Of a DNA stretch of 51,451 nt, positions 36,344 through 42,167 are shown in pieces. Position 1 is the first letter of the stretch, and every line of letters begins with the position of its first letter. The notes under the pieces are model-generated. The model was not told the DNA's origin, made no database searches, and saw only the letters and a program-made list of their open reading frames with translations. A program made the translations under genes and the position numbers. The DNA comes from Methanolobus sp. (GTDB lineage Archaea > Halobacteriota > Methanosarcinia > Methanosarcinales > Methanosarcinaceae). The stretch lies in the NCBI RefSeq assembly GCF_016278385.1, contig NZ_JADQBY010000044.1:1-51451 (forward strand). The letters are read 5' to 3'.

Positions 36344-37321
36344 TTATTTTGCTACTACTCTAACAGTATCAACAAACGCATCTTCCCGTGAATTGGACAT
36401 CTTTCCCCGGAATTGAAGTTTGAGGTTGTTTATGTCGTTCAATTCAACGCTCGCGTAGTGCCATTGATTTTCCGTATCCATATATCCTCTTAAAATTGCT
36501 TTTTCAGTCCAGGTAGCTCCTCCATCTGTGGACACATCAAATGCAAGGTATTCTCAGACCACTTTCAATGTACCAGGAGAAGGTAATTGTAGCGCTTGTT
36601 TTACCATCCAGATCTATATCTCTAGAGGTTTATGGTGCATCCCTAGCCCATCCATCGACTTCAGCAGAATATTTGCCATCTACTGCCCGCTGAACTGAAT
36701 CGTACCCGTAGCTTCGTCTGCCTTCAGTCCATAGTCCATTCCATGCCCCCTGCTCAAAACTATCATAGAATACCTCTTGGGGTTCACTGGATGCTTCTTT
36801 AATAGTCATAGTCGTATTTTTAATCGAGGTACCTATGGAATTTCCTGATGGATCACTTATAATCACGTTCTTCAGAGAAATTGTTGATGTGCTTGTAGCC
36901 TGCTCTTTTACACTCATTGTGATGCTTGAAGGACTCAGGTTCTAAGATGCTTGAAGGACTCAGGTTCTAAGATGCTTGAAGGACCCAATACCACACCATA
37001 AATATCTGAAAGTATCCCTGCATTGTTGTCTATATTTCCATAGCTGACGAATGTTGAAGCACCTTTCGAGCTTAAGAATCTACCTTTAGATACATCATGT
37101 ACCTGTATCTTTGAGCTATCAAACTCGAGATTGAACTGTAATCCGGCAATTGCAGAATCTGGTGTTATAAAAACATCTACTGTGAAATCTTCACTGGGTG
37201 TGACGATTTGAGTTGATGGTTTAAGTGTTACATTTGCTGCAGTCGAATTAAAACAACCGAAAACAAGAAGAAGTAAAAATATAGTAACCTTTGTAATGTT
37301 CTTGATAAGGTATAGCCTCAT
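36344..37321 (-). pseudogene. Secreted cohesin-like surface protein, broken by at least three lesions
   Basis: The start at 37321 gives a signal peptide (VTIFLLLLVFGCFNSTAA) and a cohesin-like domain (TVDVFITPDSAIAGLQFNLE, KGRFLSSKGASTFVSYG). The frame ends at the 25-bp repeats near 36935. Removing two repeat units restores VVLGPSSITMSVKEQA and the domain DSFEQGAWNGLWTEG. Next is a TAA after GWARDAP (near 36630), then DIDLDGKTSATITFSWYI, then a one-base shift near 36560. The last frame (EYLAFDVSTDGGATWTE to VRVVAK) ends at 36344. The intact protein would be about 310 residues. It is probably S-layer-associated, by analogy with similar methanogen proteins. Confidence 0.8.
36921..36984. repeat. 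25-bp tandem repeat inside the cohesin-like gene
   Basis: Two perfect 25-bp units (36921-36945 and 36946-36970, starting GATGCTTGAAGGACTCAGG) are followed by a 14-bp partial unit. Each unit shifts the reading frame by one base, so 0 or 3 extra units leave the gene in frame while 1 or 2 extra units break it. Confidence 0.9.
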
Positions 37322-38378: not shown

Positions 38379-41300
38379 TCAGACTAATGCATCCTCCGGG
38401 AAGTCATAGGTCATTTCTTCCACATCTGATAAGAACGAATCATCCATATCATCTGATTTCGCATAAGCATTAGCACTCACAGTATCCAGCTTGAACCTGG
38501 ACACCACCATCCGCATATTAGCTGCCACATCTGCAAGTTCCTGAGCAGATTTTGATACTTCCTGCATAGATGATGTCTGCTGTTCCACGGAAGCAGCCGT
38601 TTCCTGTGCCCCTGCTGCCGATTGTTCAGATATTGCAGACACCTCTTCGACAGAAGCTGTGATCTCCTCTATTGAAGCTGACTGTTCTTCAGCGGCTGCA
38701 GCAATTTCCTGAACCATCTTGACAATTATACCTCCGGTCTCAACAACTTCACCAATTGCCTTAACCGATTTTTCAAGGGAAACAGCCCCTGTATCAACCT
38801 CATCAGCTCCCTTTGCCATAGACGTGACTGCATCTCTTGTTCCAGTCTGTATCTGACCTATCAATTGTGCAATTTCATTAGCTGCATTACCGGAGTCTTC
38901 AGCCAGTTTTCGAACCTCGTCAGCCACCACAGCAAATCCACGGCCATGTTCTCCTGCACGTGCTGCTTCTATAGCAGCGTTTAGTGCAAGCAAATTAGTT
39001 TGATCAGCGATACTTGTGATAAGATTGACTATCTCACCTATCTGCTTGGATTTTCCATCCAATTCATTAATAACATCTGAAGATTCGCCAACTGCCGATT
39101 TTATGCTTTCCATCTTCAACATAAGATCATTGGATATTTCACCAAGGCCCTGTATGAGCTTATTGGAGTCAACAGCACTTTGTGCAGCATTCTCGGAGTT
39201 AGCAGCTACCTCCTGAACAGTGAGATTCATATCATTCATTGCCCTTGAGACCTCTTCAGCCTTGACGGACTGCATCTGCGTACCCCTTGATATCTCAGCT
39301 ACGATGTTAGTCATGTCTTCTGAAGTCGCTGTCAATTCCTCACTGGAAGCAGACATTTCCTGAGCAGTGGAAGCAATACTTTCAGCGTTATCAGTCACAA
39401 GAGTTACTATCTCATTCAATGAAGACCTGCACTTCTCCACACCTTCTGTAAGTTGTATGAAGTCTCCAACTCCATTAATACTAACCTTTCTTGTCAGGTC
39501 ATTGGATGATATTGCATCGAGGACAGCACATGAATCACCGATAATACTCTGCAGTGTATCACCAAAACCATCAAGTGTGTCACCCAATTGTTTGAAATCA
39601 CCTTCCACATCTATTGCAAATCTTGCATTCAGATCACCTTCAGCATAGGCGGTGATAACCCTTGCAGTTTCGTTCACAGGACCAACAACAGCATCAAGAC
39701 AATTGTTGACACCATCAACTATTTTGAGATAATCTCCCTGGTGTCTGGAAGTGTCAGCACGGGTATCAAGCTGCCCGTCAACACCGGCCTGAGCAAGAAT
39801 ATTTGCATCGGCTACCAGAGTATTGATCGCTTCAATACAAGTATTCAAATTGTTCTTAATGGTATTGAAATCACCATTGTACTCATCTTTGATCTTTTCA
39901 GGAATATTTCCTTTGGAGATATTTTCCACATAATCTGCAGCCATGTTAAGTGGTCCAATCACAGCATCAAGTGTGTCATTAACACCTTCTATTATCTTTC
40001 GATAATCTCCCTGATGTCTGGATGTGTCAGCACGATTATTAAGTTTCCCTTCAACTGCACCTTCTGACAACATATTTGCATCGACAACAAGCGCATTAAT
40101 TGCATCAATACACTGATTTAGGTTGTTCTTGATTGTGTTGAAGTCACCGTGATAGTCATCAGTGATCCTAGAAGGAATATTTCCATTGGAAATCTTATCC
40201 ACATAATCTGCAGCCATGTTAAGCGGTCCGATGACAGCATCAAGTGTGTCATTCACACCTTCAATAATTGCTCTGAAATCACCATTTTGTTTGGAGGCAT
40301 CGGCACGGATGTCAAGTTTACCCTCAACAGCAGCACGGGACAGCATGTTGGCATCATCGACAAGTGCATTGATAGCATCAATACACTGATTCAGGTTATT
40401 CTTGATCTCATTGAAGTCACCGTGATACTCATCGGTAATCTTGGAAGGAATATCACCATGAGATATTCTGTCAATATGTTCTGCCGCCATATTGAGTGGA
40501 TTTATCACAGCATCCAGAGTGTCATTAACTCCCTCAATGATTGCCCTGAAATCACCATCGTGTTTGGAGGCATCGGCACGGATGTCAAGTTTACCCTCAA
40601 CAGTAGCATTTGACAGCATATTGGCATCATCAACAAGTGCATTGATAGCATCAATACACTGATTCAGGTTATTCTTGATCTCGTTGAAATCACCACTGTA
40701 TTCATCGGTGATCTTGGAAGGAACTTCACCATGTGAGATTCTATCAATGTATTCTGCAGCCACGTTTAGTGGACCAATTACTGCATCGAGAGTATCATTA
40801 ACACCTTCAATGATCACCTTATAATCACCTTGATGTTTGAAAGCATCAGCACGAACATCGAGCTTACCTTCAACTGCAGCTGCCGACAACATATTAGCAT
40901 CATCAACAAGCGCAGTGATAGAATCAATACACTGATTCAAATTAATCTTAATTGTGTTGAACTCACCATTGTAGTCATCAGTGATTTTAGGGGGTATTGC
41001 ACCTTTAGAAATATTGTCAACGTAATAAGCAGCCATGTTAAGTGGATTAATTACAGCATCCAGTACCTGATTAAATCGTCTTGGTATTGCCTCAAAATCG
41101 ATTCCTACATCAATGTTTGCTCTTCTGTCAAGCTTACCTTCAAGAGTATCTTTGGATATCGTGTCAAAGTCTGTTACTATTTTCTTAATTCCTCCTGAAA
41201 TAGACCTGCTTATCAGGAATGCAGCAATACTGCCCAGAACTACAAAAATCAGAATAGCCATTATCAAACTGTTCTTGATAGCGTTTAAAGGTCCTTCAAA

Positions 41301-42167
41301 TTCTTCAGTATAAGCACTTGATACAATGAACCAGTCATTTGGCTCGTAGTAAGTGTAACTAGCAATCTTCTCACGGCCCTCCCATTCATAAGTGATCGTA
41401 CCTTCTTTAGTTGCAATGATCTCTTTTATGAAATCATTGTCAAAAACACTCTCTCCTTCAATACTAGGGTGGATTGCGAGATTACCGTTAGAGTCCATGA
41501 CATATATGTATCCAGTCTCACCAACCGTTATCTTCGACATCTGATCCTTCATAATGACCCTGTACTGCTCTTCAGGAATGCCGACGAAAAGAATACCAAT
41601 GACCTCATCTGAGCTATCTTTTATTGGTTCATATATACTTACATACCAGGAACCAAGCACATCAGCCCTCCCTTTGTAGGTTTGACCCTGCGTAACAACA
41701 GCATCGTATACTTTATCAGAAACAGTAGTCCCTACAACACGGTCTCCATCCTGATTGATAATCGTAGTACTAATACGAACTGCGGAGTCGCCCTTGATCT
41801 GGAATATAGTTACCTCCCCACCAATATCCTCCTTAATCCAGTCAACCATATCGAAGTTATTGTTGACGACATAGTTTCCACCAAGTACCATTTCACCATT
41901 GATTATGTCAGGGTTACCACGAGTATAGAATTCGTAACGTACGAGACTCAGACTGGTTTCAAGGCTTTTTTGGGCAACAGAGAATACGGAATCAATATAC
42001 TGTTTTTCAAGAAATACCTGGTCACCTAAGTTTGCCTCTAATTGATTACTGGTGGCAGAAGCTGTTTGTTCATATGAATAAAACCCAACCAGCGTGACTG
42101 GCAGAATAGTAAGCAGTAGTGATACTGCAATTATCCTTTGACTTATGGTTATATTTTTTAAGTTCAT
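38379..42167 (-). CDS. Methyl-accepting chemotaxis protein with dCache sensor and poly-HAMP repeats
   Basis: A 1262-residue receptor. A membrane helix (about residues 10-30) precedes a Cache-type extracellular domain (about 50-295, including [37 protein letters not shown] and [12 protein letters not shown]). A second helix follows (about 300-322), then HAMP. Residues 369-824 hold five 91-residue tandem repeats, each starting LDAVI(N/G)PLN and containing EGKLD-RAD, i.e. ten alternating HAMP-like units. The signalling domain contains the hairpin tip segment [20 protein letters not shown] near residue 1056 and is followed by EVRKLAEDS. It should steer archaella through CheA, though no che genes are in this window. 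The long repeated linker is unusual. Confidence 0.92.
39698..41063 (-). repeat. Five 273-bp tandem repeats in the chemoreceptor gene
   Basis: The LDAV motif recurs at residues 369, 460, 551, 642, 733 and 824, exactly 91 codons apart each time. Neighbouring units are very similar at the DNA level too, especially the central ones, which suggests recent unequal crossing-over or homogenisation. Confidence 0.85.

Follow-up and report, generated by a model that had tools for sequence, protein, structure and literature searches.

Domain architecture of the receptor

The window analysed here is a stretch of 51,451 nucleotides from a Methanolobus species, a methanogenic archaeon, and the gene of interest is a single open reading frame on its reverse strand that encodes a protein of 1262 amino acids (Table 1). 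Pfam profiles place a Cache_3-Cache_2 sensor towards the N-terminus, followed by six stretches of HAMP_2, a HAMP domain and an MCPsignal domain. The Cache and MCPsignal domains, together with a transmembrane stretch preceding the array, mark the protein as a transmembrane methyl-accepting chemotaxis protein (MCP), the chemoreceptor that the preliminary description had taken it to be; its homologues have two transmembrane stretches and a sequence search of the PDB matched solved MCP tips. No kinase domain (HisKA or HATPase) appears in the Pfam result and the output domain is MCPsignal, which separates the receptor from the fungal group III histidine kinases. Counting the membrane-proximal HAMP, five full pairs and a diverged last pair, the protein contains about 13 HAMPs, of which the last is the least certain. 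A 128-amino-acid open reading frame with a cohesin-domain match (36935-37321, reverse strand) adjoins the neighbour gene of the receptor.

Table 1. Features of the poly-HAMP receptor gene in window coordinates (aa, residues of the protein)
Feature	Position	Strand	Evidence
Whole gene: transmembrane MCP with poly-HAMP array, 1262 aa	38379..42167	-	Open reading frame and Pfam domains
Cache_3-Cache_2 extracellular sensor, aa 42-299	41271..42044	-	PF17201, E=3.5e-65
Second transmembrane helix, ~aa 297-320	41208..41279	-	Hydrophobic stretch
Membrane-proximal HAMP, B-type, ~aa 321-368	41064..41207	-	HAMP-B profile built in this analysis
HAMP-pair unit 1, aa 369-459	40791..41063	-	Profile score 171; PF18947
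HAMP-pair unit 2, aa 460-550	40518..40790	-	Profile score 175; 85.7% DNA identity with unit 3
HAMP-pair unit 3, aa 551-641	40245..40517	-	Profile score 175; centre of AlphaFold2 model (aa 546-695); Foldseek
HAMP-pair unit 4, aa 642-732	39972..40244	-	Profile score 176
HAMP-pair unit 5, aa 733-823	39699..39971	-	Profile score 167; orthologous to last unit of arrays in other species
Degenerate terminal HAMP pair, aa 824-913	39429..39698	-	Profile score 24; PF00672 on aa 827-873
MCP coiled coil and signalling tip, aa 914-1262; MCPsignal aa 1026-1179	38382..39428	-	PF00015, E=8.5e-46; conserved tip

The periodicity of the array is exact. The motif LDAV[IV][NG]P occurs at residues 369, 460, 551, 642, 733 and 824, always 91 residues apart, TRF reports a 273-bp period with 4.9 copies, and self-identity at a lag of 91 residues is 78%, whereas 500 shuffles never exceed 16%. 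The preliminary description had counted five exact 91-residue repeats between residues 369 and 824, which is correct for their spacing and length, there being five full units (369-823) and a degenerate sixth, but not for their sequences, which share 63-89% protein identity and 67-86% DNA identity. The sixth pair (824-913) is only 18-20% identical in amino acids to the other units and its profile score is far below their typical value of about 170. Near-identity of the central units at the DNA level had also been proposed; this fails for the present gene, where units 2 and 3 are the closest pair, but holds in relatives (L083, L074 and L046). Given the DNA identities and third-codon differences of 31-62% between units, the units of this gene are old duplications under purifying selection rather than near-identical copies. 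With a DNA divergence of at least 14% between units, a collapsed-repeat assembly artefact is improbable for this gene; it is possible in relatives such as Methanolobus bombayensis (G010), where contigs end within the array.

Profiles and structure of the repeat units

The repeats match the Pfam profile PF18947 (HAMP_2) with E=3.4e-180 over the six stretches, and PF00672 with E=3e-16. A sequence search of the PDB recovered the Aer2 HAMPs 3vol (5e-5) and 3lnr (0.58), as well as an entry labelled 'histidine kinase,Gcn4p', 9trk (6e-15). For structure prediction by AlphaFold2 we used a 150-residue segment spanning three HAMPs (aa 546-695), modelled as a monomer from an alignment that also contained 27 segments of other loci. 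The model has a pLDDT of 91, with helices of 20-32 residues at positions 2-24, 39-69, 84-115 and 130-149 separated by 14-residue connectors, and thus shows the AS1-connector-AS2 arrangement with AS2 running on into the next AS1. A longer model of 286 residues, built from 8 sequences, had a pLDDT of 38 and was left out of the fold search. In that search the three best Foldseek matches were Aer2 poly-HAMP crystal structures, 4i3m (E=5e-4), 4i44 and 3lnr, each with a probability of 1.00, and entries for the Af1503 HAMP were prominent among the weaker ones. The repeat units are therefore HAMP pairs, as the preliminary description had read them; profile search and structure prediction both find the repeats to be HAMP-related.

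The two HAMPs of a unit can be distinguished by sequence. HAMP A has an invariant glycine (G38 and G129 of alignment A3) within a GDFN-type motif, while HAMP B has a near-invariant glycine (G84) within a GDFR-type motif. There is therefore a single conserved glycine at the connector-AS2 junction in place of DExG, which is the mark of the divergent poly-HAMP class that includes Aer2 (PMC3570549). Aer2/McpB of Pseudomonas aeruginosa (3LNR, 4I3M) resembles the Methanolobus receptor in having concatenated HAMPs, each AS2 being continuous with the next AS1, within an MCP. Aer2 is, however, a soluble receptor with a solved poly-HAMP of three HAMPs, whereas the Methanolobus protein is a membrane-bound Cache receptor whose HAMPs number about 13, ten of which form near-uniform 91-residue pairs.

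Distribution of HAMP-pair arrays

A scan of bacterial and archaeal GTDB genomes, using the alignment of units as the query, gave at least 554 confirmed stretches, of which the 79 top-ranking loci come from Methanolobus, Methanomicrobiales, Geobacteraceae, Ignavibacteria, Rhodocyclaceae, Methylomonas, Holophagaceae and others. The preliminary description held such arrays to be known in some histidine kinases and rarer in chemoreceptors, and the scan contradicts the latter. In a tally that covers the roughly 80 most similar loci and is silent on more distant HAMP arrays, 64 proteins have a complete C-terminus; the MCP tip motif is present in 61, the other three are MCPs by eye (KGFAVVANEVKELA, RGFTVVAHEIRTLA), and a histidine-kinase motif is present in none of the 64. 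Long rods of stacked HAMPs are an established and common feature of this receptor class.

The loci yield 145 gap-free runs of at least four HAMPs, and in every one HAMP types A and B alternate strictly. A spacing of exactly 91 residues separates successive A-type HAMPs in 374 instances; the pair is the quantum by which arrays change. Bacterial arrays contain 2, 3, 4, 5, 7, 8, 11 and 15 units, and neighbouring bacterial receptors may differ (2 and 3 units at L149). The longest is a gammaproteobacterial MCP of 2213 amino acids (L154:1927-8631) whose 31 recognised HAMPs alternate strictly and make 15 units. The HAMP_2 (PF18947) arrays of bacterial and archaeal MCPs share with the Methanolobus receptor the 91-residue A/B unit, the strict alternation and the MCP output, and differ from it only in sensor, unit number and the spacing of the signalling domain.

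The fungal group III hybrid histidine kinases CaNik1p and DhNik1p are also alike in carrying about five repeats of about 92 residues, each a concatenated HAMP pair (PMC3848655), but their output is kinase and receiver domains rather than an MCP tip. In these kinases the HAMP pairs measure 90-92 residues and are reported to sense osmolarity, and deletion of repeats alters responses to osmotic stress and fungicides (PMC3848655). The shared pair size and concatenation raise the possibility that the Methanolobus array, too, acts as a sensor in the cytoplasm, perhaps of osmolarity. We consider this very unlikely, as the receptor has an extracellular Cache sensor of its own, the fungal proteins are kinases and osmosensing would be assigned here by analogy.

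Unit number in Methanolobus

Among the 15 transmembrane arrays of the genus, five units are found in the window gene (genome G000) and twice in G026, two units in G007, and eight units in G001 (twice), G005, M. bombayensis, Methanolobus profundi (G016), G019 (twice), G024 and G025 (twice). A second gene in G024 has a PAS domain in place of some units and a similar total length, and counting it as an eight-unit equivalent brings the eight-unit class to 11 of the 15. Arrays of 6, 7 or 9 units were not seen among the complete transmembrane arrays of Methanolobus. The values 2, 5 and 8 suggested a general rule that unit number equals 2 modulo 3, which we reject because of the range of bacterial counts; inside Methanolobus the rule rests on three values and is weak.

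The closest homologue of the five-unit window gene is the eight-unit gene of M. profundi, with which it is paired in a tree of Cache domains, and from this we conclude that unit number changes within Methanolobus; it is not constant across the genus. The orthology of the two genes, which have 69% Cache identity and no common flanking genes, comes from the Cache tree only and is weakened by the one-HAMP receptors, which have most of the Cache similarity too. None of the genes flanking the window gene (uvrA, a GyrI-like gene and the cohesin open reading frame) was found beside any related array fetched. Relatives that combine this Cache sensor with a single HAMP are about 680-715 residues long, and a G002 receptor (L187) has a spacing that fits three HAMPs (D=277). 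The transmembrane receptors of the genus thus have 1, 3, 7, 13 or 19 HAMPs, always an odd number.

Turnover of interior units

A tree of 93 units unites the last units across genes in a single clade (support 0.96) that includes window unit 5, which is 87.9% identical in amino acids to unit 8 of M. profundi. For 37 of the 67 interior units, by contrast, the closest unit belongs to the same gene. The M. profundi array falls into two groups, units 2-4 (89-94% DNA identity) and units 5-7 (89-92%), L072 has a pattern of two-unit blocks, and interior units of L074 and L046 are 89-98% identical in DNA, with units 2-4 and 6-7 of L074 at 94-98.5%. The strongest case is a soluble poly-HAMP MCP in G002 (L083:2983-6246), where five consecutive 273-bp units share 99.3-100% DNA identity, which marks a very recent expansion or conversion. 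Ends that stay fixed around a turned-over interior are what recombination inside an array leaves behind, whether by unequal exchange or by gene conversion. The preliminary description had attributed changes in unit number to recombination, a claim that stands for the family, with its 2, 5 or 8 units and homogenised interiors, but does not follow from the DNA of the window gene.

Exchange also takes place between paralogues, as unit 2 of L060 groups with units 1-2 of L068. A foreign HAMP pair lies mid-array in both L068 (five units) and L069 (eight units), where it matches McpB_HAMP_2 and HAMP_N3 in L069. Relative to L069, L068 lacks two units before this pair and one after it, so that at least two events, summing to three units, separate the two arrays. 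This pair is of the Aer2/McpB type (about aa 787-871 in L069), is present in L070 too, and leaves the array register intact overall.

Unit number and species

Five genomes carry two transmembrane arrays each, and in every one the counts are equal (5,5 or 8,8), with a permutation P of 0.022 that ignores both phylogeny and recombination between paralogues of the kind seen in L060 and L068. In a tree of uvrA sequences the eight-unit genomes form one clade (support 1.0) that encloses the two-unit species, while the two five-unit species fall elsewhere in the tree, each in a different clade. The Cache lineage and a second sensor lineage both have eight units within this one species clade and five outside it. 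As a lead that is not proven, unit number would track the species and not the individual receptor. What was known already is the long HAMP rod; what was unexpected, again as a lead, is the orderly change of module number between species.

Equal counts and parallel differences of 5 versus 8 suggest selection for a common receptor length. One way to read this is that the array is mainly a spacer, whose length sets the distance from membrane to baseplate, with the receptors of one cell selected to a common unit number for packing. The discrete distances from first HAMP to tip motif in the transmembrane arrays (about 459, 732 and 1005 residues) agree with it, as do the paired events that bring L068 and L069 to a difference of three units, and the total of eight reached by L046, L072 and L074 through different internal duplication histories. 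Against this, unit number varies freely in bacteria, one-HAMP receptors are present in the window genome, gene conversion could homogenise interiors with no change in number, and the independent changes are few; we regard the spacer reading as somewhat unlikely. In a more specific form the array would be a molecular ruler, selection keeping all long membrane receptors within a given Methanolobus species at the same unit number (2, 5 or 8). If this were true, receptors with unrelated sensors could share one chemosensory array and their unit number would shift jointly when a lineage changed the height of that array, but we consider the ruler unlikely.

Alternatively, unit number may be neutral, with repeat recombination altering it in the absence of selection and the species differences reflecting drift and shared ancestry. 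Bacterial counts from 2 to 15 follow no rule, and the single clade of eight-unit genomes needs few independent changes. The predominance of eight units in the genus despite varied internal duplication, and the absence of 6, 7 and 9, argue the other way, and we put the chances of neutrality at about even.

Many soluble PAS/poly-HAMP receptors (L067, L071, L076-L078, L081 and L084-L096) have first-HAMP-to-tip distances of about 998-1009 residues, near 1005. We set this match to the eight-unit length aside, as PAS residues do not convert to rod length and the families are few; it could be coincidence.

Proposed signal transmission through the array

Taken as a whole, the locus very probably encodes a Cache receptor in which a rod of about 13 HAMPs relays to an MCP tip, and in which the array changes by pairs through recombination. 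Ligand would bind outside the cell to the Cache module, and the change would cross the membrane into a dimeric rod of concatenated HAMP four-helix bundles, each AS2 continuous with the next AS1. The signal would then be relayed from bundle to bundle to a standard MCP tip controlling CheA/CheW. Recombination between units would alter the array in whole 91-residue pairs. The two end units, as the junctions with the membrane and the tip, would keep their identity while those of the interior are duplicated, lost or converted. Work on Aer2 indicates that HAMPs take two conformers with opposite outputs and that tandem HAMPs switch alternately (PMC3570549). Because the quantum is a pair, the polarity of alternate HAMPs would be preserved, and the always-odd HAMP counts may be read in the same way.

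A geometric survey of chemoreceptor arrays treated receptors with 0-2 HAMPs, stating that few have more, and the longest receptor it modelled measured 545 Å (PMC6628036). At up to 35 Å per HAMP (PMC6628036), a rod of about 13 HAMPs would by itself span up to about 450 Å. A genus with natural receptors of such varied HAMP number provides a ready length series, which could be used to test the reach of the HAMP relay, the dependence of polarity on HAMP parity and the sorting of receptors by length in arrays.

CheA/CheW-type matches and archaellins are present in the window genome. The archaeal adaptor CheF (PF04283) had no match in the window genome; of 27 Methanolobus genomes, 5 gave matches, all weak and partial. 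No cheW gene lies directly downstream of the window receptor gene. Several receptors of the second-sensor type and of the soluble poly-HAMP type (L068, L072 and L083) do have cheW directly downstream, and CheW matches near such receptors are found at G024:C1:2707688, G026:C1:2857635, G005:C1:380141 and G002:C1:2171000.
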